Virus record (IMG/VR): IMGVR_UViG_3300030107_001057
Span: 1-22,155 of that record
Length of the DNA: 22,155 bases
From: a virus
Direction: 5' to 3' (one strand)
In this document: piece by piece, positions 2 to 15,412 of the stretch
Position numbering within the stretch: position 1 is the first letter of the stretch
Layout: every line of letters starts with the position of its first letter
Notes under the pieces: generated by a model
The model's database searches: none
What the model was told of the DNA's origin: nothing
What the model saw: the letters and a program-made list of their open reading frames with translations, nothing else
Translations under genes and position numbers: made by a program

Positions 2-3000
2 TTATTATACGTAGATGTTATCTCAAATAATGCTGCCGATACTTATCTTGATGCTGCATATCTAATCGCACGTAACAGACATCTTATTGCTGATCAAGCA
101 TTAAGAGATACTCTTGTACAATTCCCAGAAGCAAATCTCTCTGATGTAGATGAAAGGAAGTGTCGTAGAGATATTAATATTGTTTTATCAGGTCTTATCC
201 GTGACCTTGTACTTGGTGGTAACTCAGGTATTGTAACTGCTGCTGAAGAATACTTCACTGGAACTCAGTTGACAGGTATTGAGACAAAAATGCTTGCTCA
301 GACCATCTATGCATATCAGAAGGTTAAAGATTATGCTATAGATGCACTTTCTAACTGGAGTGCAGGTACTACACTTCCTGCTGTAGTTACACCATCTACT
401 GCATCATATACTCCTGCATCTGGTGTTCTCACAGTAACATTCCCAACTCCTGGTACAGCAGTAACAACATCTCATAGATTTGCATTTACTGAAGAAGCAT
501 TAACATTTACATGTGATATTGATAGTGATGCTTCTACTCATGCATATCCTAGAAGAGTTCCTGCTGACGTTAAGGCATATGGTAGATCATTAGAAATCAC
601 TAATGTATCAACTTCTGGTGGTAATACAATTGTTACAGTTAATGTAGGTCCAGCATCAGGTGCAGCTGCAAGTTCTACTCATACATTTGATTCTGCTAAA
701 GCAAGTGGATGCTATGTTATCTACGATCAGGTAACAACTGATTCACCAATTCCTAAGTTTGAAGATTGGAATATTACTCTTTATACTGGTGGTACTCCAC
801 GTTGTGCTAACGTTGCATCTACAATCAACACAGAGATGGCCTTGTTTGAGGACATTCTTGATGAAACAGTAGCTTCTGGTGATACTACACAAACTTATGG
901 AACTCTATTTGATACTTCAACAATAGCAACATATCCTGATAGTTACATCTATGATGCTAACAACCAGAGAGTTGCAATTCGTGGTGACTTTGATGACTAT
1001 CCAATCATTGAGGCATCTCCATATACTCAGAACTCTTCTGTTATCTCATTCTTGGGTGGTAGTGGTGCTCTGGTTGATGGTGCGAAAGTTAAGCAACCTA
1101 ACTGTCCGTTTGCTGGATTAGAACTTGATGGTTCTGCATCCTTCCCGAACCAAGGTAAGTCGATGGTTGCAAACGCATTCACGATGGTTACATTTGGTGG
1201 TACTGGATATAACGTAATCAATGATGGATATGCACAGTTGGTGTCTGTGTTCTGTATCTTTGCTGGAGACGGTTGTTTAGCATCATCTGGTGGATATATC
1301 TCTATTACCAACTCTGCTACTAACTTTGGTCAATTCGCTCTTAGAGGTGTTGGATATAGTGCAGTACCATATACATTTGATGTTAGTACTATTACTAACG
1401 TATCTTCCACACCTACTGGTAGAACAATTCTTACAGTTAGTGGATTAGGAAGAGAACCACTAGAGCACTATGTCTTGAAGGTTGATGGATATAGTAATAC
1501 TGTAGAGGCTATAGAATACTTCGTTGATTCTGTTGCAGCAGTTACCGTTGGTCCTCCTTTCTCTGCTCAGTTAACCATTGATGATGGTACTGGTGGTGGA
1601 ATGAATCTTACCGATGACGCTACTGGCAACGCAGTTGCAACAAGTGTATTAGTTGGTAAGACATTAAGATTACATAGACCATCCATTGTTAACTCCTCAT
1701 CTCATACGTGGGAATATGCTGGATCTGGTACTAACTACCTTGCTCTACCTGAGAACGGTGGTACTAAGATTGAAGCAAACGAACAGGTCTCTGAGAACTA
1801 TGGACGAGTTTACGTCTCTGGTACTGACGAACTAGGAGACTTCAAGGTTGGTACATTCGCTAGAATTGAGAACAGAACTGGTAATATTACATTCACTGGT
1901 ACTGTTACAATTTCTGAAGTTGAATTCTTGAAACTGAAAGGTGGTGACGTTGTTGTTACTGGATTCGACGACTCTAATACATTAGGTGGATCTAATGCAT
2001 CTGACTCCAAACTACCAACTCAGAAGGCAGTCAGAGACTACATTACTAACAACTTAGGTCCATACATAAACAAGCCTTATTCAACTAACGCTGTTCCAAG
2101 AGCACTGGTTGAATTGACAGACTCAGGTAAGATATCTGTTGACCAGATTCCTGCTTTAAGACCATTCAGTGTTTACACTGTTGCTGATCAGGCAGAAAGA
2201 TTAGGACTAGAAGGTGCTCTTGCTGGTGACATTGCGATTCAGCAGGATAGTTCACAGTCCTTCATCTTGAACAATGACTTAACAAGTCTTTACATAGGAT
2301 TTACACCTAATGCTGCATTAGCATTTACTATCGGTGATATCTTTGCTGGTAGCATATCTAATGGTCAGATTCAGTCTACTGAATATAGAAAAGGTGTTCT
2401 TTATCAGATTAATATTACTAACTCTGGTTCTGGATATACAGTTGCTCCAACAGTTACAATTACAGGTGGTAACCCTGAAGCTGGTGGAGTTCAAGCTGCT
2501 GCATCATGTACTGTTGCTAACGGACAGGTTGTTACTGTTACCATTGAAGATTTCAACGGATTCAATGGTGGTAAACTTTACACCACTGCTCCAACAATCA
2601 CATTTGCTGCTCCTCCAGGAGCTGGAACACAGGCACAAGGTGTTGGTTTAATTGAAAGTAGATTGTATGGTGATATCGTTAACAAGATTAAGATTGAAGA
2701 TACTGATACATTTGATGATAGTACAACACCTACTGCTACTACAGTTAACATTAACAGAATTGTTAATACATCTGCTACAGTTGCTAACAACTGGGTATCA
2801 CTATCTACCAACCAAATTGCTGCTTCTGACATCACATCTGGTGTTATTGAAACAGATAGATTGGCATCAGGTGGTGCTGCTAACTCCTTCACCTTCTTAC
2901 GTGGTGACCAGAACTTCTCACTTGCAGTTCAATCACTCAAAGGTGCTGAGAATAGATACTTCGCTCAGTTATATTCACAGGCAAGTACAGGTACTAACCA

Positions 3001-6000
3001 GTTAATATTCCAGACAAACCAGAATGCTTTGGTTGGTCACGAAGTTAAATCTACCAATACTGGAATTGATGCAAACACAAATATTACAGGTGTTATCACT
3101 GCTGGTGGATTAACCACAGTCTCGATTAATAATCCAGTTACTCAGAACATAGTTGCTGGAACTATTATGGAGTTCGAGCGTGGTGAGTCTCCAATGACCT
3201 TCGAGTCAACTTATACACAAGGTAACTTTATAGATGACGTTATTATTTCTAATGGTGGTTCTGGATATACCAATGGTCAGTACTTTGGTGTTGGCCTATC
3301 TGGTGGTACGGGAGTTGACCTCAAGGTTAACATAGTTGTATCTGGTAACGCAGTAACAGAAATCACAGTAACAGATGCTGGTAGTGGATATAATGCAGAC
3401 TTCTCGATTACAGTTGCTCCATCTGAAATTGGAACTGGATCTGGTCTTGTATTAGAAGCTAAAGTAAGTACTGTTATTAGACAATATGCTAACGTCGCTA
3501 TGGACGTTAAGCGTGTACAAGACACAACAATTTCTTCTGACCTCTACGGAACCATTGGTGTTTCAAGATATAAGAAGGCACAATTTAATATTGGTGTAGC
3601 AGGTAATGGTTCTGTCGAACTGAAGACTGGACCTGATAGCGGACTTGACGCTGACCTTCTTGACGGTGCTCAAGGTTCCTTCTATCTAAACTCTGGTAAT
3701 CAGAATGCTGGTACATTACCTACTGATAGATTATCTGGTACATATAACATTAGTATTTCTGGTCAGTCTCAGAACACTATCAGACTACTAACTGGTACTA
3801 ACAACCCTACATCAAACCCTGCTCCAAACAACTTCGTTGAAGGTGTTATCTCTAACACTATATTCAACAGTGCTAACAGTCTTGCTGATGGTGGTACTAG
3901 AAACCTAGTAATGACTATCAGAAATGGTGGTTCTGGTTTTGATGCTACATTTGGTGGTGTAAGACAACTTGCATTCACAGACAACGACAACATGTGGTTG
4001 CGTGGTTCTGGAACAGGTGTTACAACTTGGGGATCATGGGGTAAGGTCTGGACATCACTTAACGATGGTGTAGATTCTGGCCTTGATGCTGATAGATTTG
4101 ATAACAGGCAAGGTGCTTGGTATCAAAATGCTCTTAACATTAACTTCGGTACTCTTTCTGATAATAGATTACCTAGATTCTTAAGTCCAACAGTATTCAA
4201 TAATACTGTAACAATTAAGTCTTTCTTAGGAGATCCTAAGTATGAGATATATGTTTCTGGATTAATATTAAATACATCTCCTTGGATTCCAGGTAACCCA
4301 GTTAACCTATACAACTCTAACTCACAGGCAGTTGGTAGTTTCACGATTGATAACATCTCAATCAATGATGATGTTGGTGATAACTTTAATGACTATACCA
4401 TTCTTATTGGTAGATTAACTTCTGGTAACTTTATTGGTGCTGAAACAATTGGTACTGCAAGTAATAGAGTTACATTCCATGACTTTACTATCCAAGATGG
4501 TAACACATATCAAGTAGCAAAACTTTATAGTAATGGTGGTCAAGGTTTACTTGAATTAGGTAGATCAGATGGTCAGGCAACTTCTCCATCCATCTACTTT
4601 AATTCTTCTGCTAGTGCAGCAACTAATTATAACGTTGCTCTTATAGCACAAGGTGGTAATTCAACTGATGGATCTGGTACATTAGATATTCAGGTCGTTA
4701 ATGCTGATGGTTTATCAATCAATGGTAACACAGCATGGAACGCAGGTAACATTACCTTCCAGTCAGCAAACATTGCAAGTACTGCTGTTAAGAGAGATGC
4801 TTCTGGTAATTTCTCTGCTGGTACTATTACAGCATCTATTGTTGGTGCATCTTCACTCAACGTATTGAAGACTGGCGATACCATGACTGGTACGCTGAAC
4901 ATCACTGGTGCTGGTTCTAACTTATCAGTCTCTAACAATCTTTCTGTTACTGGTACAACAACATTAACTGATGATGTTAATGTAGATTCTGGTACATTAT
5001 TCGTTGATGTTTCACAGAATAATGTTGGTATTGGTACTGCATCACCTAGTTCTGCTGTTAAGTTGGATGTACGTGGTTCAATAAGAATTGGTACATTTGC
5101 ACAGAGTCAGACAAATGCTGGTGAAGCATGGATTGGTCGTGCAGCAGATAGAGAAGATGGTACATTAACAATTCAACTTGGTGGTGATTCCGCATCCAAT
5201 ACTAAGTTTGAAATCGTAGACCGTGCTTGGTCTAAGGTTATGTACTCCTTCAGTGGAGAAGCTCCTGCTTCTGCTTTACATATCAATTCTAGTGGTAATG
5301 TTGGAATAGGTAGAGCAGCAACTTCTGGTTACAAACTAGATGTTAATGGTTCTGGTATGGTTCAGGGTAGTTGGAGTATTGACTCTGCCAACGATAACTC
5401 TGGTGCTCCTATCTACTTCAAGGGTGCTTCTTCTGCAAGGAACTTCAGAATTGGTAACCAGATTGGATGGAACGATGTATTTGAAATCACTCCATCTACT
5501 GCTAATGGTAATACAACATGGCAAAATACTCCTGCTGTTGCTGTTCAAGGTACTAACAGAAGAGTTGCCATTAACACAAATGTATTCTCTGGAACAGATA
5601 CAACTGTATCACCAAACGTCAATAGAGATTATCAGTTAAATATTCAAGGTGATGTTAACCTTAATGGTCAACTCTTCCAGAATAATGCTGAGTTCGTTAC
5701 TTCAAGATGGACTAAATCTCCTAATGATAATGACATCTACAGACAATCTCTTGTTGGTATTAACTTCTCAACAGATAGAGATCCTGAAGAGGCATTAGAA
5801 GTTGAAGGTAATATCGAAATTAGTGGACAATTAGAAGCTAATGGAGATAAGCAATGGTTGGATCAGTATGGTGTTATTAAAACTAACAGAAATTCTGTTA
5901 GTGAAAACGTCACTATTCCAAACAACAGCAACGCATTCTCCTTTGGTCCATTGGAGATAACAAGCGGAAACACAGTCACCATAGATAATGGTGGTAATTG

Positions 6001-6013
6001 GACTATCTTATAA
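2..6013 (+). CDS. Giant modular virion structural protein (tail fibre/baseplate type), 5' end outside window
   Basis: The frame is open from base 2 to the TAA at 6011-6013, so at least 2003 residues are visible and the true start lies upstream; an internal TTG at 269 should not be taken as the start. The visible N-terminus is helical. It is followed by beta-rich Gly/Ser/Thr/Asn repeats. Recognisable modules, by visible residue: LPTQKAVRDYI near 670; GSGY beta repeats near 809, 1085 and 1126; two DSGLDAD fibre units near 1211 and 1357 flanking a pyocin-knob-like stretch ending in WGSWGKVW; GDTMTGTLNITG near 1626; NVGIG repeats near 1674 and 1764. Such NVGIG units often precede an endosialidase-type chaperone, but no such domain is seen at this C-terminus. 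Position upstream of the neck genes fits the T4 baseplate/short-fibre region. Role as a structural protein is secure; the exact T4 equivalent is not. Confidence 0.88.
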   Translation, partial: LLYVDVISNNAADTYLDAAYLIARNRHLIADQALRDTLVQFPEANLSDVDERKCRRDINIVLSGLIRDLVLGGNSGIVTAAEEYFTGTQLTGIETKMLAQTIYAYQKVKDYAIDALSNWSAGTTLPAVVTPSTASYTPASGVLTVTFPTPGTAVTTSHRFAFTEEALTFTCDIDSDASTHAYPRRVPADVKAYGRSLEITNVSTSGGNTIVTVNVGPASGAAASSTHTFDSAKASGCYVIYDQVTTDSPIPKFEDWNITLYTGGTPRCANVASTINTEMALFEDILDETVASGDTTQTYGTLFDTSTIATYPDSYIYDANNQRVAIRGDFDDYPIIEASPYTQNSSVISFLGGSGALVDGAKVKQPNCPFAGLELDGSASFPNQGKSMVANAFTMVTFGGTGYNVINDGYAQLVSVFCIFAGDGCLASSGGYISITNSATNFGQFALRGVGYSAVPYTFDVSTITNVSSTPTGRTILTVSGLGREPLEHYVLKVDGYSNTVEAIEYFVDSVAAVTVGPPFSAQLTIDDGTGGGMNLTDDATGNAVATSVLVGKTLRLHRPSIVNSSSHTWEYAGSGTNYLALPENGGTKIEANEQVSENYGRVYVSGTDELGDFKVGTFARIENRTGNITFTGTVTISEVEFLKLKGGDVVVTGFDDSNTLGGSNASDSKLPTQKAVRDYITNNLGPYINKPYSTNAVPRALVELTDSGKISVDQIPALRPFSVYTVADQAERLGLEGALAGDIAIQQDSSQSFILNNDLTSLYIGFTPNAALAFTIGDIFAGSISNGQIQSTEYRKGVLYQINITNSGSGYTVAPTVTITGGNPEAGGVQAAASCTVANGQVVTVTIEDFNGFNGGKLYTTAPTITFAAPPGAGTQAQGVGLIESRLYGDIVNKIKIEDTDTFDDSTTPTATTVNINRIVNTSATVANNWVSLSTNQIAASDITSGVIETDRLASGGAANSFTFLRGDQNFSLAVQSLKGAENRYFAQLYSQASTGTNQLIFQTNQNALVGHEVKSTNTGIDANTNITGVITAGGLTTVSINNPVTQNIVAGTIMEFERGESPMTFESTYTQGNFIDDVIISNGGSGYTNGQYFGVGLSGGTGVDLKVNIVVSGNAVTEITVTDAGSGYNADFSITVAPSEIGTGSGLVLEAKVSTVIRQYANVAMDVKRVQDTTISSDLYGTIGVSRYKKAQFNIGVAGNGSVELKTGPDSGLDADLLDGAQGSFYLNSGNQNAGTLPTDRLSGTYNISISGQSQNTIRLLTGTNNPTSNPAPNNFVEGVISNTIFNSANSLADGGTRNLVMTIRNGGSGFDATFGGVRQLAFTDNDNMWLRGSGTGVTTWGSWGKVWTSLNDGVDSGLDADRFDNRQGAWYQNALNINFGTLSDNRLPRFLSPTVFNNTVTIKSFLGDPKYEIYVSGLILNTSPWIPGNPVNLYNSNSQAVGSFTIDNISINDDVGDNFNDYTILIGRLTSGNFIGAETIGTASNRVTFHDFTIQDGNTYQVAKLYSNGGQGLLELGRSDGQATSPSIYFNSSASAATNYNVALIAQGGNSTDGSGTLDIQVVNADGLSINGNTAWNAGNITFQSANIASTAVKRDASGNFSAGTITASIVGASSLNVLKTGDTMTGTLNITGAGSNLSVSNNLSVTGTTTLTDDVNVDSGTLFVDVSQNNVGIGTASPSSAVKLDVRGSIRIGTFAQSQTNAGEAWIGRAADREDGTLTIQLGGDSASNTKFEIVDRAWSKVMYSFSGEAPASALHINSSGNVGIGRAATSGYKLDVNGSGMVQGSWSIDSANDNSGAPIYFKGASSARNFRIGNQIGWNDVFEITPSTANGNTTWQNTPAVAVQGTNRRVAINTNVFSGTDTTVSPNVNRDYQLNIQGDVNLNGQLFQNNAEFVTSRWTKSPNDNDIYRQSLVGINFSTDRDPEEALEVEGNIEISGQLEANGDKQWLDQYGVIKTNRNSVSENVTIPNNSNAFSFGPLEITSGNTVTIDNGGNWTIL
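5882..5902 (+). repeat. 8-bp inverted repeat near the end of the giant structural gene
   Basis: ACTAACAG and CTGTTAGT flank a 5-base AAATT loop (the centre ATT/AAT extends the symmetry to a 10-bp quasi-palindrome). It lies 111 bases before the stop, in coding DNA, and has no T tract. It may be an RNA stem or chance. Confidence 0.35.
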
Positions 6014-6016
6014 ATA
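6009..6016 (+). promoter_or_regulatory. T4-type late promoter octamer TATAAATA
   Basis: An exact TATAAATA overlaps the stop codon of the giant structural gene and lies 45 bases before the next ATG. In T4-like phages this octamer alone, read by the gp55 sigma factor, defines late promoters. Its location before a virion gene fits late transcription. Confidence 0.6.
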
Positions 6017-6021
6017 GATTT

Positions 6022-6029
6022 GATAAATA
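6022..6029 (+). promoter_or_regulatory. Second late-promoter-like octamer GATAAATA
   Basis: This one-mismatch version of TATAAATA lies 6 bases after the first octamer, in the same 47-base intergenic gap. It would place a transcript start around 6035, with a leader of about 25 bases before the ATG at 6061. It may be the used site, a tandem promoter, or chance in AT-rich DNA. Confidence 0.4.
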
Positions 6030-6060
6030 AAATTACGCGAAAGTACGTCACAGGGTAGTT

Positions 6061-7344
6061 ATGTCACAGTTAACAGTTGGTACTGTAGTCACTGGGGCCG
6101 CTAGTTTAAGCGGAACAGGATTAAAGTTACCTCAATATAATAACTCCAACAGACCTGGATCACCCAATACGGGTCAAATGATCTGGAATACTGATGAGGC
6201 AAAAGCCCAAATCTGGGGTGGTTCTGACTGGGATGACGTTGGTGGAGGAATACCACCTGCTGCTAACATAACACGAGGTGCTTATCTGGTATCAGATGGT
6301 GATAATGGTGTATTCTGGGCATACCCAGGACAGACAGTTGCATCTGCTCCTTTAACAGGATTTAGATATAGAAGTTTGATTACACATGGTTACCTGATTG
6401 CTGGATATAAAGGATCTAATCCTTGGAGAACTGTTAACAAGACTTGGCACGCAAACGACGTTACTTTCTATTGTGGTGAACAACTTGACCGTGCATTAAC
6501 ATATGCTGACTGTAGTTGGAGTGATTACTTCGGTTATGGTCATGGATGTGTTAACTCATTCACTGGAAACTCTAACCATACATGTTCGATCAACCTCCAT
6601 ACTGGAATGAGACGAATGTTTGGTACTACAGGATCAAACCCTGGCGGTGGTACTTATTCACCTGCTAACTATGGTTGGGAAGGAGATGATCCACGAGGTG
6701 TTATGGGATATGGTACTGTTGGTGGTTGGAACATGCCTGTATCTAGGGATAGAAACTCATGTGCTACTGCACAAAAACAACAGCATGGTTATAACTTAGG
6801 TGGAGGAAACTCTGCTGTAGGTAAGTTGCACTTCCCTTCAGAGATCATGTATCAGTCAGGTAACTCACCTTCTGGTAGTGACCACACTGCATCATGTGGT
6901 GATGAGGATGTTACATGGGCATCATTTAGAGGTTCAAGACATTCCTGTAACCAAAATAATGATAGTTGGTCTGGTTGGTCTTCTAACGCTGCTCCTGATG
7001 GAGTTTGTAAGTTCCTTCCTACTAAGTATGGACATTTCTATGCTGGAACTGGAAACAACGTTACATCTCCTTGGACTAAGTATAATGGTTCTAATGGTGG
7101 CGGTATTAAGAATGGACAGAAAGTTCGTTCTTATGGAGAAGAAAACTTTGAAATGGGACAAGATCATGGTTATATGATGGGACAATATGATGGTCAGCAG
7201 AACAACCACACTACTAAGTGGGATTATACTACTGACGTTGAAACAAATATGGGTCCAACAACAAGACCTAAAGGCCATTATGGTCAATCATCTGGTGGAT
7301 GTGCTTCGGCTGCCACTGCTGTCACCGCTAACTACGCACAATAA
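6061..7344 (+). CDS. Virion structural protein, fibre-tip or decoration type (Gly/Asn/Trp/Cys-rich)
   Basis: A 427-residue protein starting at ATG 6061 after an AGGG ribosome-binding site. It has no signal peptide or membrane segment. The N-terminal ~75 residues hold short fibre-like elements (RPGSPNTGQMIWNTDE, a motif common to phage tail proteins that ends in a Trp-rich strand). From about residue 80 the chain is a large Gly/Asn/Tyr/Trp/His-rich domain with nine cysteines. The style is that of cyanomyovirus virion proteins encoded near the tail genes, and I place it there from memory of such proteins rather than a search. The rich aromatic and polar surface composition suggests surface exposure, perhaps receptor or glycan binding. 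It follows the giant structural gene by 47 bases that hold late-promoter octamers, and precedes the next gene by 8 bases. Confidence 0.75.
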   Translation: MSQLTVGTVVTGAASLSGTGLKLPQYNNSNRPGSPNTGQMIWNTDEAKAQIWGGSDWDDVGGGIPPAANITRGAYLVSDGDNGVFWAYPGQTVASAPLTGFRYRSLITHGYLIAGYKGSNPWRTVNKTWHANDVTFYCGEQLDRALTYADCSWSDYFGYGHGCVNSFTGNSNHTCSINLHTGMRRMFGTTGSNPGGGTYSPANYGWEGDDPRGVMGYGTVGGWNMPVSRDRNSCATAQKQQHGYNLGGGNSAVGKLHFPSEIMYQSGNSPSGSDHTASCGDEDVTWASFRGSRHSCNQNNDSWSGWSSNAAPDGVCKFLPTKYGHFYAGTGNNVTSPWTKYNGSNGGGIKNGQKVRSYGEENFEMGQDHGYMMGQYDGQQNNHTTKWDYTTDVETNMGPTTRPKGHYGQSSGGCASAATAVTANYAQ

Positions 7345-7352
7345 GGCCAAAA

Positions 7353-8168
7353 ATGAGATACATCATAGTAAACGAAAAAGAAATTGACCAGAATCATTTC
7401 GTCAACGTCGCTGAAACTCTAGATGAGAGGATGCATTACAGTGAGATCTTCACTCTTATGCATTTTTCTTGCGTAGAAATCAGTGAAGATTACTGGCAAG
7501 TTATCTCGAAAGAGTGGGAGCACAAGTATAAAGAACTTACTGCTTCTCAAGCATATAACGGATCTAACTTTTTTGGTGAAGTAAGACCTTATGGTAAGAT
7601 AATGACAGACCAGAATGCACAAGGTGTTTCTCAAGCATGGACACCTGCTGGTGGAGTAATGAAGACAGCAATTACTTTGACAGCAGAAGCTAAGCAAGAG
7701 ATTATGGATTTCATGATTTTGTTTGCAAAAGAAATTGTTGATGATGAATTTAACGTAAGAATTAGAAATTTAAGAGATACATCTGAAGTAGAGGTTGCTT
7801 CATGGGAGATTCAAAAGCACGAAGCAAGAGAATGGTTGAGAGAAAAGGGAGCAAATGGTAGTAGAACTCCTTTCTTAGACTATATTGCTACAGAAAGAAG
7901 CTTGACAAAAGATGTACTTGCTAATAAAATATTAACCAAAGCAGAAGCATACGAAGACAATTTATCCACATTGCTTGTTAAGCATCAAAAAGTGATTAAA
8001 GAATTTGAAAATTGCAATTCTATATGGGATCTAAATATAGTATATGAGGATCGCTTAGGCGTTATTATGCCTCAGACCCAGGCCATCGAAATGGGTAGAA
8101 CCATTTCTGATACTGACTGGGATCGTAAAACTGATTATGAAATAAAAGCACATGTCTTTAAGTTCTAA
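7353..8168 (+). CDS. Conserved-type phage protein of unknown function, 271 aa
   Basis: Starts at ATG 7353, eight bases after the structural gene, and ends 17 bases inside the next gene. The protein is soluble and has no signal or membrane segment. The first ~110 residues are mixed, and residues 110-230 are mainly helical with many Glu/Lys. A Trp-rich segment near 60-95 (WEHKYKEL, FFGEVRPYGK, WTPAGGVM) is the most distinctive part. I recognise no enzyme motif. Its position between virion genes, and its coupling to another large helical protein, suggest a tail assembly or chaperone role, but that is inference only. Confidence 0.72.
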   Translation: MRYIIVNEKEIDQNHFVNVAETLDERMHYSEIFTLMHFSCVEISEDYWQVISKEWEHKYKELTASQAYNGSNFFGEVRPYGKIMTDQNAQGVSQAWTPAGGVMKTAITLTAEAKQEIMDFMILFAKEIVDDEFNVRIRNLRDTSEVEVASWEIQKHEAREWLREKGANGSRTPFLDYIATERSLTKDVLANKILTKAEAYEDNLSTLLVKHQKVIKEFENCNSIWDLNIVYEDRLGVIMPQTQAIEMGRTISDTDWDRKTDYEIKAHVFKF

Positions 8169-9075
8169 ACAAATTGAAACTGGTCACGAAGTTACCAAAG
8201 CAAACATCGCTGACTATTCCGATATCATTTCTGATGTGAATAACATTGTCAGTAGCCAGTCTGGCCAGATACATCTAGCAAAATCTTTTATAGATGAATT
8301 CTCTTTTACTAAGAGAGAATTAGATATACTTGATGGTTGTATGGATTTCCAAAGTGGAATGACCAACTATCAATGTGAGCATTTTGTTGCTAATACACAA
8401 ATAACACCTTGGAGAAAAGTTCGTCAGGCATTGATGGAACTAGAAACAAGGTATCATGCCTATATGGAAACTAGGCATAGTCTTAGAAAAGCAGAATTGC
8501 TTAGAAAAAAATTCCTTCGTTCTATTGAAAATGTAGAGGCAGAAGGTGGAGATGAAATTGATGCTGGATTTATCCAGATTGATTTAGAAAAGAATGATTA
8601 TGACATTGGTATATGGAGACGTAAACTACGTCAAGCAGAATTAGAAATGAAGTATTTCTTGGATATTGTTAACAAGTATGTTGACGATGAGCATCCATTA
8701 GAATATTTCTTGAATGAACAAGAGGATGAAGAGAGGTTATACTGGGTTGCTAGAATGGGTAAGCAAGCTGCTATGGATATTATTTCCTATGGTAGAATAG
8801 GTGCAGGTAACATGACTTCTATTTTGGATATGCCAGAAGAAGATCAAGTTAAGGCCCTAGAAGTTGCAGTCCAATTCTCAGGAATGATTGGTGGAGGTAT
8901 TGATAAGATTCAAAAGACCTTTGCTCCAGCGATTCAACAGCAACTAGCAGAGGATGGAATTTCAATGCCTAAGTTTATGCCACATAAATATACAGGACAG
9001 CTCCATTCATTAAAAGAAGGAGAACCAAAAATCAAACACAAACGTATGTTAGAGGGAGAAGCAAATGGCAAATAG
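8152..9075 (+). CDS. Conserved-type phage protein of unknown function, helical, 307 aa
   Basis: ATG 8152 lies within the previous gene (17-base overlap), and the end overlaps the next gene by 11 bases, so the three genes are probably translationally coupled. Residues ~90-180 are strongly helical and heptad-like (RQALMELETRYHAYMETRHS and then an RRKLRQAELEMKYFLD segment), typical of a coiled coil. A moderately hydrophobic Gly-rich stretch occurs near residues 205-250 (MDIISYGRIGAGNM, QFSGMIGGGIDKI). There are no catalytic motifs that I can recognise. Context with the preceding gene hints at a two-component assembly factor or structural accessory of the tail; this is unproven. Confidence 0.72.
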   Translation: MSLSSKQIETGHEVTKANIADYSDIISDVNNIVSSQSGQIHLAKSFIDEFSFTKRELDILDGCMDFQSGMTNYQCEHFVANTQITPWRKVRQALMELETRYHAYMETRHSLRKAELLRKKFLRSIENVEAEGGDEIDAGFIQIDLEKNDYDIGIWRRKLRQAELEMKYFLDIVNKYVDDEHPLEYFLNEQEDEERLYWVARMGKQAAMDIISYGRIGAGNMTSILDMPEEDQVKALEVAVQFSGMIGGGIDKIQKTFAPAIQQQLAEDGISMPKFMPHKYTGQLHSLKEGEPKIKHKRMLEGEANGK

Positions 9076-9325
9076 TCCTGGAGCAACTTGGTCAGCATCA
9101 GCACCAAGATGGCAAGAATTACTACCAATAATTCACTTCAAGATTTATGATGTATATGAACTTGAAGATAAGAATAGAGATTTAGATCGTGCTGCATTAC
9201 AAGGAATTGTAGAGGGCAATAAATCATTATTAGTTAATACTGATAACGAGCAAATTTTCATTGACAGATGTATTAAAGATTATGGAGAAAATGTTCTCGA
9301 TACCACTCAATACAAAGTTACCTGA
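9065..9325 (+). CDS. Small protein of unknown function, 86 aa
   Basis: ATG 9065 is preceded by a good GAGGGAG ribosome-binding site (9052-9058). It overlaps the end of the upstream gene by 11 bases. The N-terminus is Ser/Ala/Trp-rich (MANSPGATWSASAPRWQELL). The rest is charged and mixed helix/strand, with no cysteine cluster, signal or membrane segment. The last 35 bases overlap the start of the downstream two-domain enzyme. I recognise no family. Confidence 0.65.
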   Translation: MANSPGATWSASAPRWQELLPIIHFKIYDVYELEDKNRDLDRAALQGIVEGNKSLLVNTDNEQIFIDRCIKDYGENVLDTTQYKVT

Positions 9326-11003
9326 AGACTTTGTAGAACAATCTTTCATACCATATCTTAAGCAGTATAAAGATTATCTTTACGACATATACTTTACATG
9401 TCGTATGCCTCCTTTTGAACAAGATGCAATGGGAGATGTTGTAGATGGTGACATAAGAGAAACTACTCTTAATGCCCTCTACGTTTCAGAAAAGTCTGGT
9501 ATCCCTCTATCAGCAACATTCAACAATATCCAGGTTACACCTAACCAAAGTAACCTGGATATTTTCATTGAGAATTTTAAACCATTGTATGAAGCAGGTA
9601 TCCGTATTGTTACTCTTCCTCATACAACATGGATATTGACTGGCCAGATACAAAAAGAATTTCCAGATCTCTTTATTAAAAATACTATTCTTAGAGAAGT
9701 AACAAGAGCAAATGAGATAGTTAATCTAGCAAAAGCAGGATTTCATTATGTGAATCTTGATAGAGATTTAATGCGTGATCGTGATCAGTTAAATCACATC
9801 ATGAAAGCAAAAGCATATTGTGCTGATATAGGTAAACCAGTTAAGATATCATTACTTGCTAATGAGTGGTGTTGGGGTGGATGTCCGATCATGCCAGAAC
9901 ACTATCATTACAATAGTGTTAGAGATAAACAACAACCACAATATTTTAATGATGCTATTAGTAGAGTTTCTTGTTCTGCATGGGATGAGAAAGATCCTGC
10001 TAATGCTTTAAAGCAAGCAACTATTCCACCTTGGAAAGAAGATTGGCAAGAGTTTCTTGATCTTGGTATAGATGTATTTAAGATGCATGGTAGAGAGAAT
10101 GCTATGCGTCTAATGGAATCTATGGAGATTATTAAGAGATGGGTTGATGATGAAGAATTATTATATCAAGAGTTTAATGAGTATATTGAAGATACTACAT
10201 TAGAAGAAAAACCAATTGATATATGGCGAAATAAAATCAAGACTTGTAAGTTTGATTGTTGGGATTGTAACTACTGTGATTCAGTTATCCATTCTAGGAT
10301 GAAAAAGAATGAAAGAACTATGGATAAAGATATTGAATTAGTTCTCAATTCTATTGATAAAGCAGTAAGAAGAGAAAGTAAATTTATAGAAGAGGGATAT
10401 GATATTCCTGGACTATCATCAAATATAGTAAGGCATTTCTTAAACAATCTTTGTTCAAAAGAAGATGCTGTTTATATGGAATTAGGTGTTCATGCTGGTA
10501 GTACTTTTGTTGCTGCTACGATGGGACATGATATAACTTCATTTGCTATTGATAATTATTCAGAAGAAAATATATCACCATTCCGTGATGAAGATGTTAA
10601 ATCTGATGGGAAGGTAACACTAGGCCATAAAGGTTATCAAATGACTAATCCTAAGAATACTATTCTTAGATCATTAAGACCTAATCAGCATTTTTATGCT
10701 AAGGCAATTCAGGAACTTAAATTCCCAATGTTCCACGGTAAGAAAGCAAATATTATTTTCTATGATGCTGATCATGATCCACAAGCAACCTATGATAATT
10801 TAACTTATCTTTATACAGTTATGGATGATCAATTTATAATTGTAATTGATGATGCTAATTTCATGGGTGTTGTTGAAGCAGCAAATATCTGGATAAAAGA
10901 GAATGAATTAAAAGTTCTCTTTGATAGAAAGATATTAACTTCTATTCCAGAAGATCCTAATAGTTGGTGGAATGGTGTACATATAATGGTCTGTCAAAAA
11001 TGA
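9291..11003 (+). CDS. Two-domain enzyme: U32-like TIM-barrel domain with Cys clusters fused to a class I SAM methyltransferase-like domain
   Basis: From ATG 9291 (GGAG directly upstream; ATG 9282 and TTG 9261 are alternatives) the protein has 570 residues. Residues ~1-290 read like a TIM barrel of the U32/collagenase-like group: alternating strands and helices, RIVTLPHTTW near 105, HYVNLDRD near 152, and NEWCWGGCPIMPEHYHYN at 191-208 with C194 and C198. A C-x3-C-x2-C-x2-C cluster follows (C319, C323, C326, C329). Several U32 members carry Fe-S clusters on cysteines in comparable places. Residues ~375-570 resemble Methyltransf_24-type class I methyltransferases: MELGVHAGSTF at 397-407 (SAM-binding glycine loop), IIFYDADHD at 488-496, and IIVIDDANF at 516-524. 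Substrate unknown. It heads a run of 2OG/Fe(II) oxygenases, overlapping the first by ATGA. The methyltransferase part is moderately certain; the U32 assignment is a resemblance only. Confidence 0.7.
   Translation: MFSIPLNTKLPEDFVEQSFIPYLKQYKDYLYDIYFTCRMPPFEQDAMGDVVDGDIRETTLNALYVSEKSGIPLSATFNNIQVTPNQSNLDIFIENFKPLYEAGIRIVTLPHTTWILTGQIQKEFPDLFIKNTILREVTRANEIVNLAKAGFHYVNLDRDLMRDRDQLNHIMKAKAYCADIGKPVKISLLANEWCWGGCPIMPEHYHYNSVRDKQQPQYFNDAISRVSCSAWDEKDPANALKQATIPPWKEDWQEFLDLGIDVFKMHGRENAMRLMESMEIIKRWVDDEELLYQEFNEYIEDTTLEEKPIDIWRNKIKTCKFDCWDCNYCDSVIHSRMKKNERTMDKDIELVLNSIDKAVRRESKFIEEGYDIPGLSSNIVRHFLNNLCSKEDAVYMELGVHAGSTFVAATMGHDITSFAIDNYSEENISPFRDEDVKSDGKVTLGHKGYQMTNPKNTILRSLRPNQHFYAKAIQELKFPMFHGKKANIIFYDADHDPQATYDNLTYLYTVMDDQFIIVIDDANFMGVVEAANIWIKENELKVLFDRKILTSIPEDPNSWWNGVHIMVCQK
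9525..9563 (+). other. Perfect 14-bp inverted repeat (hairpin) within a coding region, followed by TT
   Basis: The left arm AATATCCAGGTTAC (9525-9538) and right arm GTAACCTGGATATT (9550-9563) are exact reverse complements around an 11-base loop. The right arm runs into TTC, so a TTTTC tract covers 9562-9566. As RNA this is a strong stem-loop about 235 bases into the two-domain enzyme gene. It could act as an attenuator, terminator-like or processing element. The short T tract and the coding location argue against a strong terminator. Confidence 0.6.
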
Positions 11004-11593
11004 ATTCATTTAGAACTCAATATATTATAATCAAAATGGAAGATGAATATTTTGATTTAATAGAGAAACAACTTAAAACTGCTAGAGGTAAAGATCGTAA
11101 TAATAAACCTATTGATGATTATGAATTATCTAAAGTTGAAGGAGTAGATTCTAAGGTTGGTGCTTACGATAAAGTAAATAGACAATCCAAATCTCGTTTT
11201 ATAGATGATGAACGTCTCTATGGATTAATGGATGGAATGGTTAGATTTGCTAATGAAAAATGTGAATGGAATTATGATGTTGATTTTATTGAACCTATAC
11301 AAGACACTTTGTATGAAGTAGGTGGTTATTATGATTGGCATATAGATGAATCTAATTGGTTTCAAGGTAAGAGACAGAGTAATAGAATAAGAAAGATAAG
11401 TTTTACTGTCTTATTAAATGATGATTTTGAAGGTGGTGAGTTTGAATTATTTGCTGATGAAAAGAAAGTTATCCCAATGAAGAAAAAAGATGTTATAATG
11501 TTCATGGGTGATACACCACACAGAGTAAGAGAAGTTACTTCTGGGTGTAGAAAATCTTTAGTAGGATGGGTACAGGGGCCTCCATATAAATGA
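11000..11593 (+). CDS. 2-oxoglutarate/Fe(II) oxygenase, prolyl-4-hydroxylase-like (oxygenase 1 of 6)
   Basis: The start is taken at ATG 11000, which overlaps the previous stop (ATGA), rather than the in-frame ATG 10964 inside the upstream gene. The 197-residue chain ends in the double-stranded beta-helix core. The Fe(II) ligands are H114 and D116 in YDWHIDES and H174 in DTPHRVREV; the probable 2-oxoglutarate-binding residue is R184. GGEFELF (145-151) is the usual strand after the first ligands, as in 2OG-FeII_Oxy_3 proteins. The family couples oxidation of a substrate, often hydroxylation, to decarboxylation of 2-oxoglutarate. The N-terminal 90 residues are charged and unrecognised. All catalytic residues are present, so it should be active; its substrate is unknown. 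Confidence 0.86.
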   Translation: MNSFRTQYIIIKMEDEYFDLIEKQLKTARGKDRNNKPIDDYELSKVEGVDSKVGAYDKVNRQSKSRFIDDERLYGLMDGMVRFANEKCEWNYDVDFIEPIQDTLYEVGGYYDWHIDESNWFQGKRQSNRIRKISFTVLLNDDFEGGEFELFADEKKVIPMKKKDVIMFMGDTPHRVREVTSGCRKSLVGWVQGPPYK

Positions 11594-12156
11594 AATTTAT
11601 TAGAGAATATCAATTAAAAGATCTTACCATTTGTGATGCTATGATAGACCTCTTTAATAGAGGAAATAGTAAAGCATTAACATATCCTGGTAGAGTAGGT
11701 GGTGGAAGTATTATTCCTGATATTAAAAGGAGTACAGATTTTTCTTTAGATGATGCTGGACAACTTGGTAAACCAGATGATTTTAAGTATGATTTATATC
11801 ATACTGAATTGGATGAGTTTATTGATGATTATCTTGAAACATTACAAATAGAGAATATAGAATTTGTTAAAAAGAATTTACCTCAGATACAATACTATAG
11901 GCCAGGAGAAGGTTTCTATACATGGCATGTAGATGGTTCTGGTTTAGATGGATGTGATAGAGCATTTGTTTATATCACATATTTGAATGATGTTCCTAAT
12001 GGTGGTACAGAGTTCTTCTATCAAGATTATACTGTTAGAGCATTGAAAGGTAATACAGTTATATTTCCTGCTTGTTTAACTCACAAACATAGAGGACAGA
12101 TATCAAAAGAACATGAAAAATATATTCTTACAGGATGGATATGGTGGGGAGCATGA
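11590..12156 (+). CDS. 2-oxoglutarate/Fe(II) oxygenase, P4H/SM-20-like (oxygenase 2 of 6)
   Basis: Starts at an ATGA overlap with oxygenase 1 and gives 188 residues. The Fe ligands are H113 and D115 in YTWHVDGSG, plus H165 or H167 in LTHKHRGQ. The C-terminal KYILTGW places a lysine (K177), not arginine, at the usual 2-oxoglutarate carboxylate position, as in prolyl-4-hydroxylase-type enzymes. NGGTEFFYQ (137-145) and the FP before the distal histidine are standard core landmarks. It differs from oxygenase 1 in the N-terminal half and in the Lys/Arg choice, so the two are not a recent tandem duplication. Acts in the cytosol; substrate unknown. Confidence 0.87.
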   Translation: MKFIREYQLKDLTICDAMIDLFNRGNSKALTYPGRVGGGSIIPDIKRSTDFSLDDAGQLGKPDDFKYDLYHTELDEFIDDYLETLQIENIEFVKKNLPQIQYYRPGEGFYTWHVDGSGLDGCDRAFVYITYLNDVPNGGTEFFYQDYTVRALKGNTVIFPACLTHKHRGQISKEHEKYILTGWIWWGA

Positions 12157-12734
12157 ATAAACCAATAGTAATATATGACGTTCTTCCAAGGAATGAGGTA
12201 GATGCATTGTATCCCTATTTTGATCGTAAGTCACCTGCTATCAATAGTCTTGCAACATGGACATATAATAATGCATCTTATGGAAAGGGTGATCCTATAT
12301 CATGGCAACATCCATTAAGAACAGATTTAATTTTTGAAAAGTGTGCTACTACAGTTAAGTTAAAGATGATGAAACATCTTAGAAGGCCATTAAAGTTATG
12401 TAAGATACATGTTAATGGACAAACTGCTGGACAGGATACAGTATTTCATAGAGATTTTCAGGAAGATGATGTATGGACATTCATTTATTTCAATCAACAT
12501 TATTGGAATATAGAATGGGGTGGTGAGTTTGTTGCTCAAAGTCCTGATGGTGTTTATCATTACACACCATACATACCAAATACAGGTGCATTTATTCCTT
12601 CTAATTGGGAACACAAAGGACACCCTCCTAATGATTTAATTGGGAATGATATAAGAACAACCATTGCGTTTTCTTTTTGTGATCCTAAGATCCATTCTCA
12701 TATAATAAGTCAGACAACTAGAAAATGGTATTAG
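12153..12734 (+). CDS. 2-oxoglutarate/Fe(II) oxygenase (oxygenase 3 of 6)
   Basis: Start taken at ATG 12153, which overlaps the previous stop (ATGA) and has GGGGAGC just before it; in-frame ATGs at 12135 and 12141 would only add six or four residues. 193 residues. The ligands are H99 and D101 in TVFHRDFQ, H154 in NWEHKGH, and R168 in NDIRTTIAF. A GGEFV strand (123-127) sits between them. The N-terminal half is Trp/Tyr-rich (SLATWTYNNASYG). This layout resembles the 2OG-Fe(II) oxygenase genes found in many marine T4-like phages. Fold and active site are clear, substrate not. Confidence 0.82.
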   Translation: MNKPIVIYDVLPRNEVDALYPYFDRKSPAINSLATWTYNNASYGKGDPISWQHPLRTDLIFEKCATTVKLKMMKHLRRPLKLCKIHVNGQTAGQDTVFHRDFQEDDVWTFIYFNQHYWNIEWGGEFVAQSPDGVYHYTPYIPNTGAFIPSNWEHKGHPPNDLIGNDIRTTIAFSFCDPKIHSHIISQTTRKWY

Positions 12735-13228
12735 GTATTAAAGAATATCCATGTCAATTAGATAATGATGAGTTAGATACTCTGATAGATTTTATTGATA
12801 ATATTAGATACCAAAGTAATCCTACTGTTGTTAAGACAGAAGATAATTTTTTAGATTGTGATCTACCAGTAATTCAGAAATTGAGATGGTCATATTATGA
12901 TTCATGTTCTAGATATTGGGATATGGATGTATTTGATTTTAAAATAAATTCTTGGATATATGTTGACTGGAAAGGAAATAGTAAAGAACCATATATGCAC
13001 GCTCATAACAGTGAGAATCCATATACACTTTCTGGTATAATGTATCTAAAATTTACAAACTCATCTGGAACTACAATGTTTCCAATGCCAGGTAGGCCAT
13101 CATATTTTTTACCAAATAAGATGTTAACTTGGTTTATATTTCCATCTAATCTTCCACATATACCAGGTAGAGGAATGGACAATGAAAAACGTTACTCACT
13201 AAGTGCAGATTTGTATTATGGACGATAG
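12725..13228 (+). CDS. Putative 2OG-Fe(II) oxygenase, H-x-H type (oxygenase 4 of 6)
   Basis: Starts at ATG 12725, overlapping oxygenase 3 by 10 bases, without a clear ribosome-binding site; 167 residues. PYMHAHNSENPYTLSGIMYL (89-108) matches the pattern of the 2OG-FeII_Oxy_5 type (H-x-H followed by SG and a YL strand). H92 and H94 stand where most relatives have H-x-D. The distal part is WFIFPSNLPHIPG with H145, then R156 in KRYSLSADL. These agree with the family's FPS..H...eR pattern. Activity is likely but less certain than for H-x-D members, because the second ligand position is a histidine. Confidence 0.72.
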   Translation: MVLGIKEYPCQLDNDELDTLIDFIDNIRYQSNPTVVKTEDNFLDCDLPVIQKLRWSYYDSCSRYWDMDVFDFKINSWIYVDWKGNSKEPYMHAHNSENPYTLSGIMYLKFTNSSGTTMFPMPGRPSYFLPNKMLTWFIFPSNLPHIPGRGMDNEKRYSLSADLYYGR

Positions 13229-13832
13229 TATTAAAAAACAAGAGGCTTTAACTTTTGTTGCAGAGAAGATGCCAGCACCAATATATTCAGATCTTCGTGC
13301 TTATTGTGAGAAGAGAAGACATGATGAGGTGTGGGATTATAATTGGAAGTTGGCAGGTGCTCTAGATCAACAATCAAGTTTAAATGATCATAAATTAGAG
13401 TGTCCAGATTTAGAAGATTATTTGTTATTCAATACTAATAAGATATGGAATGACATATATTTGACATGTCCTTGGGAGTTTAATACTTGTAAAGATCCAA
13501 CTAGGTATATGAAACTCAAGAGTTTATGGGTTAACTATCAGAAAAAAGGAGAATATAATCCTATGCATAGTCATGCTGGTATTGCTAGTTTCGTTATATT
13601 TGTTGATATACCATATGGATCTGATGAGAGAGATACTCATATGAGTAATGGTGGATTACAGTTAGAGAAGGATGTATTACCATTAGATAGTTCATGGAAT
13701 GGTACTCTTATTTTATTTCCTTCAACTACAATGCACGCTGTATATCCTTATTACTCTACGGATAAAGAAAGAATAACTGTGGCAGGTAATGTTGCATGGG
13801 ATGTGGAGGGGCCAGATGAAGAGCATTATTGA
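13218..13832 (+). CDS. Putative 2OG-Fe(II) oxygenase, H-x-H type (oxygenase 5 of 6)
   Basis: Start taken at ATG 13218, giving an 11-base overlap with oxygenase 4; an in-frame GTG at 13203 is less likely. 204 residues. Core motifs: YNPMHSHAGIASFVIFVDIP with H117 and H119, TLILFPSTTMHAVYP with H173, and KERITVAGNVAW with R185. The order and spacing match oxygenase 4, but the N-terminal 110 residues and most core residues differ, so they are diverged members of one subfamily. The Glu/Lys- and Trp-rich N-terminal half is unrecognised. Probably a soluble hydroxylase of unknown substrate. Confidence 0.74.
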   Translation: MDDSIKKQEALTFVAEKMPAPIYSDLRAYCEKRRHDEVWDYNWKLAGALDQQSSLNDHKLECPDLEDYLLFNTNKIWNDIYLTCPWEFNTCKDPTRYMKLKSLWVNYQKKGEYNPMHSHAGIASFVIFVDIPYGSDERDTHMSNGGLQLEKDVLPLDSSWNGTLILFPSTTMHAVYPYYSTDKERITVAGNVAWDVEGPDEEHY

Positions 13833-14355
13833 TGATTGTATTGATAAGTCATATCAAAATACAGTAGAGGATACTCTTAGGTTTAATACTGACTTCAGAT
13901 GGGTCTATCATGATAATCTTGTAGAGGATGGTGATCATCAACTGATAGGATTCTCTCATATGTTTATTCTTAATGGAGAATCATGTAGTGATTTTAGTGG
14001 ATTATTAATGCCACTAGTATATGAAGCATGTGATAATGCAAAATTAAATATCTCAAAGGTGTTACGTGCAAGATGTTTCTTACAAACACCTGGAGTCAGA
14101 GAGCATGAGTATGATCAGATGCATGTTGATATACCAGATTTTCATAATGTATGTCTTTATTATGTAAATGACAGTGACGGAGATACGTACTTTAGTGAGA
14201 AGATGTACGGAGATCCCGTTGGAGAATATGGTATAAATACTACTGTCTCACCAAAGAAAGGACGTTGTGTATTCTTTGATGGCCTACGTTTTCACGCAAG
14301 CAGCAAACCTACACAAAATTCTAGATTTGTGATAAACTATAACTTTATACCCTGA
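13816..14355 (+). CDS. 2-oxoglutarate/Fe(II) oxygenase (oxygenase 6 of 6)
   Basis: ATG 13816 is chosen because GGAGG lies at the right distance (13805-13809); the ATG at 13789 would extend the overlap with oxygenase 5 and lacks such a site. 179 residues. The ligands are H103 and D105 in YDQMHVDIPDF, H160 in DGLRFHASS, and R170 in NSRFVINYNF. The strand CLYYVNDSDGDTYFSE (113-128) is typical of phage 2OG-Fe(II) oxygenases annotated in cyanomyoviruses. It ends the cassette 6 bases before the next small gene. The catalytic set is complete; substrate unknown. Confidence 0.84.
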   Translation: MKSIIDDCIDKSYQNTVEDTLRFNTDFRWVYHDNLVEDGDHQLIGFSHMFILNGESCSDFSGLLMPLVYEACDNAKLNISKVLRARCFLQTPGVREHEYDQMHVDIPDFHNVCLYYVNDSDGDTYFSEKMYGDPVGEYGINTTVSPKKGRCVFFDGLRFHASSKPTQNSRFVINYNFIP

Positions 14356-14361
14356 TTAGAT

Positions 14362-14571
14362 ATGGATCCAGCAGAATTGAAAAAGAATTTTACTGAGCAA
14401 ATCGAGAAAACTGATGCTCAGATAAGAGAACTAGAACAAAATCTAGAGAAAGCAAAAGAATATAAAACAAAATTGACTGGGGGATTAGAAACTATTGAAC
14501 TTCTTAATCCTGAGTCTAAGGATGAAGCACCAGCAGTAGCTCCAGAATCTACTGGAGATGCTCCTTCCTAA
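14362..14571 (+). CDS. Small coiled-coil protein, 69 aa
   Basis: ATG 14362 to TAA 14569-14571. Residues 4-47 form one continuous charged heptad pattern (EQIEKTDAQIRELEQNLEKA), a clear coiled coil. The rest is an acidic Pro/Ala/Glu tail that looks disordered (DEAPAVAPESTGDAPS). There is no membrane or signal segment. It sits directly before the neck gene gp13, and similar short coiled-coil genes occur there in cyanomyoviruses. It may be a structural or assembly accessory; no function can be read from it. Confidence 0.68.
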   Translation: MDPAELKKNFTEQIEKTDAQIRELEQNLEKAKEYKTKLTGGLETIELLNPESKDEAPAVAPESTGDAPS

Positions 14572-14584
14572 ATAAGAAGGAAGG
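14540..14584 (+). other. Two consecutive small hairpins before gp13
   Basis: CTCCAG (14540-14545) pairs with CTGGAG (14552-14557) around a 6-base loop. CCTTCC (14563-14568) pairs with GGAAGG (14579-14584) around a 10-base loop that contains the stop codon of the small coiled-coil gene. No T tract follows, so a terminator is unlikely. They may shape the mRNA upstream of the gp13 ribosome-binding site. Confidence 0.4.
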
Positions 14585-14599
14585 TAATATAGGTTAATA

Positions 14600-15412
14600 A
14601 TGGCATCACCTGCAAGTAAGACCGATCTTATAACTTATTGTAAGAGGCAATTGGGTGAACCTGTGCTACAGGTCAACATTGATGATGAGCAAGTCAATAA
14701 CGTAATTGATGACACATTTCAGTTCTTTCAGGAGAATTGTTATAATGGCATGGAGCGTTGTTATCTGAAGCATGAACTAACTGCTGATGATAAAACTCGT
14801 CTTGCTGCATGGACAGATTCTACTGTCACAGAGGGTGCTGTAACAACCACTTGGAATGAATCAACAAATTATATACCAGTACCATCTCATGTAGTTGGTG
14901 TTAGTAAAGTATTTGGAATGGTTGGTAACTCCATCCGTTCCAATCTTTTTGGTATCGAATATCGAATGTTCTTGAATGACTTATATGCATTTGGATCACT
15001 TGATATTCTTAATTATTATATGACAAAGCAATATCTTGAAACACTAGATATGGTTTTGAATAATGGTTCCTTCCAACAGTTCAGATTTACACAACGTCGT
15101 GATCGTCTGTACTTAGATATTGATAAGGACTTTCTTGAAACAGGCCAACACCTCTTAATTGAGTGTCATCGTCTGTTAGATCCAACTGATGCTACTGAGA
15201 TGTATAATGATATCTTTGTGAAAAGATATGCTACTGCTCTTATGAAGAAACAGTGGGGTCAAAACTTGATCAAATATAATGATGTTAAATTACCTGGTGG
15301 TGTAACACTTAATGGTAGACAGATATTTGAAGATGGTCAATCTGATTTAAGGATGATAGAAGGTGAAGTTCTCAGTAAGTATGCACTTCCACCAATGGAT
15401 ATGATAGGTTAA
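14600..15412 (+). CDS. 13: Neck protein gp13 (T4-like)
   Basis: A 270-residue protein from ATG 14600, with AGG nine to seven bases before the start in TAGGTTAATA. In T4, gp13 completes the neck with gp14 after DNA packaging and prepares the head for tail joining. The N-terminus (SKTDLITYCKRQLGEPVLQV), the FQFFQEN stretch and the LDILNYYMTKQYLETLDM segment are characteristic of the cyanomyovirus gp13 family, and the gene lies in the conserved order gp13-gp14-gp15-gp16. Length agrees with cyanophage gp13 (T4 gp13 is about 309 residues). Only one base separates it from gp14. The assignment is from memory of the family plus synteny. Confidence 0.88.
   Translation: MASPASKTDLITYCKRQLGEPVLQVNIDDEQVNNVIDDTFQFFQENCYNGMERCYLKHELTADDKTRLAAWTDSTVTEGAVTTTWNESTNYIPVPSHVVGVSKVFGMVGNSIRSNLFGIEYRMFLNDLYAFGSLDILNYYMTKQYLETLDMVLNNGSFQQFRFTQRRDRLYLDIDKDFLETGQHLLIECHRLLDPTDATEMYNDIFVKRYATALMKKQWGQNLIKYNDVKLPGGVTLNGRQIFEDGQSDLRMIEGEVLSKYALPPMDMIG

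Follow-up and report, generated by a model that had tools for sequence, protein, structure and literature searches.

The window analysed here, the 22,155-nucleotide IMG/VR virus record IMGVR_UViG_3300030107_001057, is of the T4-like cyanomyovirus type, with a gp14 that is 75-77% identical to those of Sf-CH11, Syn1 and S-RIM44, and our subject is a run of six successive genes in it, g1 to g6 (11000-14355), that encode predicted 2-oxoglutarate (2OG)/Fe(II) oxygenases. The run is part of an adhesin/oxygenase module that lies between the long tail-fibre gene, which ends at 6013, and gp13 at 14600, and all features of which are on the + strand. A T4/cyanophage-type late promoter element, TATAAATA (6009-6016), precedes the module. 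It is followed by the gene for F (6061-7344; phrog_1417, PHROG match at 7e-73), a fibre-tip/adhesin-like protein whose homologues hold the T4-GC 351 position and are annotated as sericin-1-like, by two genes for proteins without known function at the T4-GC 352 (7353-8168; phrog_1604) and 353 (8152-9075; phrog_1409) positions, by a small open reading frame (ORF) of 86 amino acids that is kept in the cassette clade (9065-9325), and by the gene for MT (9261-11003; phrog_1458, 2e-230), a protein of 580 amino acids at the T4-GC 354 position, the true start of which is probably slightly downstream of the ORF start at 9261. The gene order in Syn33 and P-HM2 is identical.

The oxygenase genes begin with g1 (11000-11593; PKHD/prolyl-hydroxylase-like, PF13640) and g2 (11590-12156; prolyl 4-hydroxylase-like with a Lys at the 2OG position, PF13640) and continue with g3 (12153-12734, ORF opening at 12135; PolD/OGFOD1-like, phrog_274), g4 (12725-13228; 2OG-FeII_Oxy_5 type with a His-x-His...His site), g5 (13218-13832, ORF opening at 13203; 2OG-FeII_Oxy_5, PF13759, with the same type of site) and g6 (13816-14355, ORF opening at 13789; weakly PHD2-like, phrog_274). 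Neighbouring genes in the run share a few bases at each junction and look translationally coupled. Behind g6 lie s69 (14362-14571; phrog_580), a small conserved gene of 69 codons that delimits the exchanged module on its 3' side, and a CTAAATA late-type element ahead of gp13 (14568-14574) that closes the module's own unit. A first-pass annotation made from the sequence alone had placed the run between fibre-type and neck genes, which is correct overall except that the gene directly upstream encodes MT and not a fibre protein.

The same annotation had described all six genes as 2OG/Fe(II) oxygenase-like, and this is borne out by Pfam, PHROGs, comparison with the PDB and the predicted fold of g4. 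Curated Pfam cut-offs are passed by g1 (PF13640, 4e-14), g2 (PF13640, 3e-10) and g5 (PF13759, 5e-11, 43.4 bits against a cut-off of 27), and g3 (0.006), g4 (0.006) and g6 (3.5e-4) match the families of g1, g2 and g5 below the cut-off, with g4 by itself reaching 17.3 bits for PF13759. All six fall into the PHROG 2OG families 61 and 81 or into phrog_274, and the phrog_274 genes g3 and g6 match additional 2OG PHROGs. When profiles built from the orthologs of each gene were compared with PDB sequences, the best matches were in every case 2OG oxygenases or members of 2OG families: PKHD hydroxylase for g1 (1e-12), a bacterial prolyl 4-hydroxylase for g2 (3e-7), PolD for g3 (2e-5), the 3bvc/2rg4 family for g4 (2e-18) and g5 (2e-23), and PHD2 for g6 (0.002, weak and the poorest of the six). 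The nearness of g1, g2 and g6 to the prolyl 4-hydroxylase family is by profile only. For g4, the least certain member, the predicted structure (predicted local distance difference test, pLDDT, 84) contains a double-stranded beta-helix and in Foldseek matches PolD, prolyl hydroxylases and PHD2 with a probability of 1.00 and a template modelling (TM) score of about 0.66. Together, these sequence and fold comparisons confirm the assignment of g1 to g6 to the 2OG/Fe(II) oxygenase superfamily; the beta-helix is predicted directly for g4 and would follow by homology for g1, g2, g3, g5 and g6.

Two other family assignments for g3 and g6 were rejected. Relatives of these genes carry the label DNA endonuclease V (denV), and for g3, g6 and the Syn33 gene labelled denV Pfam gave 2OG families and sub-threshold noise only and no homology to T4 endonuclease V. 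The sole Pfam match of the Syn33 gene (L095:13206-13706; phrog_274) is a sub-threshold one to a 2OG oxygenase family, and some of the genes tallied as denV in cyanophage surveys may bear the wrong name. Membership in the FlmC family was dropped because the score was far under the curated cut-off; searching the literature for it gave nothing.

Each of the six proteins retains a complete set of active-site residues, as the first-pass annotation had also proposed. The metal ligands and the 2OG residue are H114/D116/H174 and R184 in g1, H113/D115/H165 and K177 in g2, H105/D107/H160 and R174 in g3, H92/H94/H145 and R156 in g4, H122/H124/H178 and R190 in g5, and H112/D114/H169 and R179 in g6. In alignments of 46, 47, 33, 42, 57 and 34 distinct orthologs of g1 to g6, respectively, these residues are invariant apart from a few gaps and from position 94 of g4, which is H in 33, D in eight and G in one of the 42 orthologs. 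The His-x-His...His site and Arg of g4 and g5 are also found in the solved Oxy_5 members 3bvc and 2rg4. For informative pairs the ratio of nonsynonymous to synonymous substitution rates (dN/dS) is mostly 0.05-0.34, with synonymous sites near saturation in the widest pairs, and all six genes are under purifying selection.

A single-sequence search at E<=10 detected no similarity between any two of g1 to g6 and found relatives outside the cassette for each of them. Because the closer relatives lie elsewhere, a fresh tandem duplication is ruled out, and we regard the run, in agreement with the first-pass annotation, as an old collected set. Among 61 non-redundant MT-to-gp13 intervals, with DUF6445 proteins counted as oxygenase-like, the number of consecutive oxygenases ranges from zero to seven, with six in 15 and seven in nine. 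The fixed order MT-g1-g2-(g7)-g3-g4-g5-g6-s69-gp13 recurs in many independent IMG/VR contigs, which rules out an assembly artefact; g7 is a seventh oxygenase, over the PF13640 cut-off, that lies between g2 and g3 at many loci. One locus (L136) has only g2 and g5, and g4 or g6 is missing from others. The collections searched contained no isolated phage that carries the set. The DUF6445 or DUF6445-like proteins at L138:5235-5879, L172:5736-6401 and L006:16102-16866 lie among 2OG genes and show the HxD...H...R spacing of 2OG enzymes.

The remark in the first-pass annotation that single 2OG oxygenases are known in T4-like cyanophages set the baseline too low. Up to five per cyanophage genome have been reported (PMC3037559) and S-SCSM1 has 24 (PMC9602691); the overall range is about 9-24 per genome, and whole cyanophage genomes match PF13640 at 7-13 and PF13759 at 2-12 places (some overlapping). 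Runs of four adjacent genes occur in S-SCSM1 (ORF240-243, directly before tail-fibre genes) and in phage ms29 (ORFs 213-216; PMC10436341). Thus, runs as such are already known in isolates, the longest seen in fixed order being six to seven, and what looks new here is the context, i.e. a set of six or seven genes in fixed order tied to one adhesin module.

The MT protein, which precedes the oxygenases, belongs to a family that occurs in 123 cyanophage records (phrog_1458). Its C-terminal half contains a class I methyltransferase domain (Methyltransf_24 in 12/12 orthologs, best 9.5e-9) with Foldseek matches to MycF-like O-methyltransferases. The AlphaFold model of MT is weak (pLDDT 66, predicted TM score 0.46) and its N-terminal half matches a generic barrel in Foldseek; this half has invariant Cys, in a CWGGCP motif and a later CKFDCWDCNYC motif, in the window and 11 orthologs, and looks like a metal-site enzyme of unassigned type. 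Inspection by eye had suggested a U32/UbiU-like O2-independent hydroxylase, which we rejected: there was no PF01136 match at E<=10, and an hhalign comparison with one E. coli sequence each of UbiU and UbiV gave a probability of about 2% or less. In S-RIM2, Syn33 and P-RSM1 the F-352-353-MT set is followed by one 2OG gene and lies elsewhere in the genome, away from gp13; therefore, the module's linkage to a 2OG gene is independent of gp13.

Promoter elements argue for a common expression of the module. In cyanophages, NATAAATA has been described as the late motif (PMC2984593). An [AC]TAAATA element lies within 75 nucleotides upstream of F in 17/17 distinct cassette-locus sequences, against a background of 3.4%, and CTAAATA is found 22-32 nucleotides upstream of the gp13 ORF in all 39 loci (16/16 distinct upstream sequences). 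The same motif scan found no late-type element ahead of any of the six oxygenase genes. With elements before F and gp13 and none before g1 to g6, the stretch from F through the oxygenases looks like one late transcription unit.

The phylogenetic data show that this stretch is also a unit of exchange. In the trees of MT, F, 352 and 353, carriers of the oxygenases form a single clade with starred support. In the tree of the neck protein gp14, seven changes are needed to explain the carriers and a single clade is rejected (approximately unbiased test, p_AU 4.2e-5, quick search). Moreover, locus L013 with six oxygenases and locus L014 with one share 93-95% DNA identity beginning just behind g6, whereas upstream of that edge DNA similarity is found in MT only (74%). 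Based on the tree conflict and the L013/L014 identity, F, 352, 353, MT and the oxygenases are exchanged as one block, the right edge of which lies at g6/s69, so that the fibre tip and the oxygenases move between phages as one module. A separate comparison, of the window with the L007/L152 contig, gave 97% identity from 9237 on and only about 67-81% upstream (window 2320-9237), which we read as a recombination edge near the MT start. The amino acid composition of F was considered as a clue to the modified residue, F being richer in Cys, His, Pro and Trp in carriers; since the carriers are one clade and the grouping was a looser one, it was not used.

The co-travel of the oxygenases with a fibre gene suggests the chemical finishing of a host-gripping protein. 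Combining the late-type placement, the linkage to one adhesin and the conserved active sites, we favor a model, to which we assign a probability of about 0.5, in which g1 to g6 hydroxylate the fibre adhesin F and represent the oxidizing component of an adhesin module. In this model, one late unit would yield F, the 352 and 353 proteins (possibly assembly or scaffold proteins), MT and the six oxygenases. At late stages of infection, with O2 and 2-oxoglutarate as cosubstrates, the oxygenases would place hydroxyl groups on different side chains of F or of the long fibre that F caps, MT could O-methylate F, and these modifications would alter the surface or the stability of the receptor-binding tip. 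The model is further supported by the presence of protein hydroxylases among the solved relatives and of other tailoring-type enzymes in alternative modules, and by the position of S-SCSM1 ORF240-243 in front of tail-fibre genes. The enzyme activities, F as the substrate, the residues concerned and the effect on host binding are all steps that we infer. The dedicated modification pathway proposed in the first-pass annotation is thus plausible, and among the targets it listed virion proteins are favored over host metabolites because of the linkage to the adhesin module and the late-type promoter placement. More tentatively, and as a less probable extension, six or seven non-redundant oxygenases together with MT may constitute an oxidative finishing line that decorates the fibre tip with several hydroxyl and methyl groups, with halogenases used by sister alleles and with host-recognition chemistry and adhesin swapped as one allelic block.

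Several observations weigh against hydroxylation of F. Carriers form one clade in each adhesin tree, and therefore the connection with F counts once in evolutionary terms and not many times. In 9/61 loci there is no oxygenase between MT and gp13, some of these having them upstream, and P-HM2 has the four-gene F-352-353-MT set with no oxygenase annotated; an F-352-353-MT set with few or no oxygenases implies that the latter are not essential for F. The three-His site of g4 and g5 is a candidate active site, and the solved 2OG relatives include small-molecule enzymes such as PolD. Finally, adhesin-linked genes need not act on the adhesin, and the receptor or the host surface could be the target.

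This last point leads to the main rival, in which the targets are host surface glycans, lipids or a small metabolite, so that a receptor would, for instance, be altered or masked after infection, and the oxygenases travel with the adhesin by way of the shared receptor. Adhesin co-inheritance fits this equally well, many small molecules are substrates within the superfamily, PolD is the closest fold of g4 and the profile match of g3, and in Sf-CH8 sugar-metabolism genes are found close to a g3 relative. However, expression from a late-type promoter with the structural genes would be late for host remodelling, the module has no glycosyltransferase or sugar-nucleotide gene, and protein hydroxylases are nearest to g1, g2 and g6; we consider modification on the receptor side rather unlikely, if the best of the alternatives. 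Less probable again is that the beta-helix proteins are virion components or fibre chaperones with secondary or lost chemistry, as their small, compact form, the adjoining fibre and neck genes and a PHROG labelled minor coat protein, weakly matched by g6, might suggest. Invariant metal and 2OG residues are unexpected for a structural role alone, and virion proteomics of S-SCSM1 named no 2OG oxygenases among the non-structural proteins, albeit for distantly related genes and with 13 detected proteins of unknown function (PMC9602691).

Metabolic consumption of 2-oxoglutarate and DNA repair both fit poorly. The idea of general auxiliary metabolism, either by burning 2-oxoglutarate to succinate or by altering NtcA signalling, goes back to Sullivan et al. 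2010 (PMC3037559) and was taken up again for S-SCSM1 (PMC9602691), but it leaves unexplained why six divergent enzymes with intact active sites are kept in fixed order, co-inherited with one adhesin type and placed in a late-type unit, and we hold it to be improbable. Still further behind, and in our view very improbable, is DNA repair or modification by AlkB- or TET-like enzymes or a denV-like endonuclease. DNA repair has been put forward as a function of cyanophage 2OG proteins (quoted in PMC3037559) and relatives of g6 bear the endonuclease label, but the Pfam families of g3, g6 and the Syn33 gene are 2OG families and not that of endonuclease V, AlkB and TET are absent from the PDB profile matches, and the locus lies outside the replication region.

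Cyanophage 2OG oxygenases are many, have no assigned function and are usually ascribed to host metabolism, and among the papers that we searched none tied them to tail-fibre modification; the adhesin linkage, together with the fixed order and the late-type promoter placement, names a specific candidate substrate. If hydroxylation of F is correct, tail-fibre specificity would rest on post-translational chemistry as well as on sequence, with a bearing on host-range prediction, and these loci would be a source of new protein hydroxylases. The database names DNA endonuclease V, ferrochelatase and minor coat protein at this locus need re-examination.

Other alleles of the locus differ in their enzymes. 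In S-RIM44 it encodes a pair of Trp halogenases, several 2OG oxygenases, a DUF6445-like protein and a JmjC_2 protein, Sf-CH11 has the order 2OG-2OG-halogenase-2OG, and the annotated genes of S-PM2 encode virion proteins only. In the sister module at the tail-fibre/gp13 locus, the two Trp halogenase genes are in tandem (L006:11634-14745), and a tail-fibre substrate is conceivable for them. In another allele an Oxy_5 gene is followed by a gene for a ferredoxin-like Fe-S protein of 261-283 amino acids (L154:10327-11112, L155:9682-10533) that could be an electron donor, and L148:10154-11194 encodes a hydrophobic, transporter-like protein of 346 amino acids between oxygenases and gp13. In the isolate Sf-CH8 (L090:12517-14500) the g3 relative is one of a few clustered 2OG-like genes next to tRNAs.

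Compared with known systems, the cassette shares with bacterial, algal-virus and animal PKHD/PiuC, P4H, OGFOD1 and PHD2 the HxD...H...R/K site and, by profile, the double-stranded beta-helix; sequence similarity is low and nothing points to proline as the substrate residue. The cluster of S-RIM44 and Sf-CH11 has the same tail-fibre/gp13 position and several 2OG oxygenases of shared families, but it contains flavin-dependent Trp halogenases and lacks MT and most of g1 to g6, and the DUF6445-like and JmjC_2 proteins of S-RIM44 have no counterpart in the cassette. The T4-GC 351-354 module of Syn33, P-RSM1, S-RIM2 and P-HM2 has the fibre tip, 352, 353 and MT in identical order, and behind them a single 2OG gene (with the label denV or hypothetical) or none in the annotation. 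The repertoire of S-SCSM1 resembles the cassette in superfamily, Pfam families, low mutual identity and runs of up to four genes, some of them beside tail fibres (PMC9602691). That set was described as a genome-wide count and read as genes for host metabolism (PMC9602691), whereas the cassette is a set of six or seven genes in fixed order that is co-inherited with one adhesin module.

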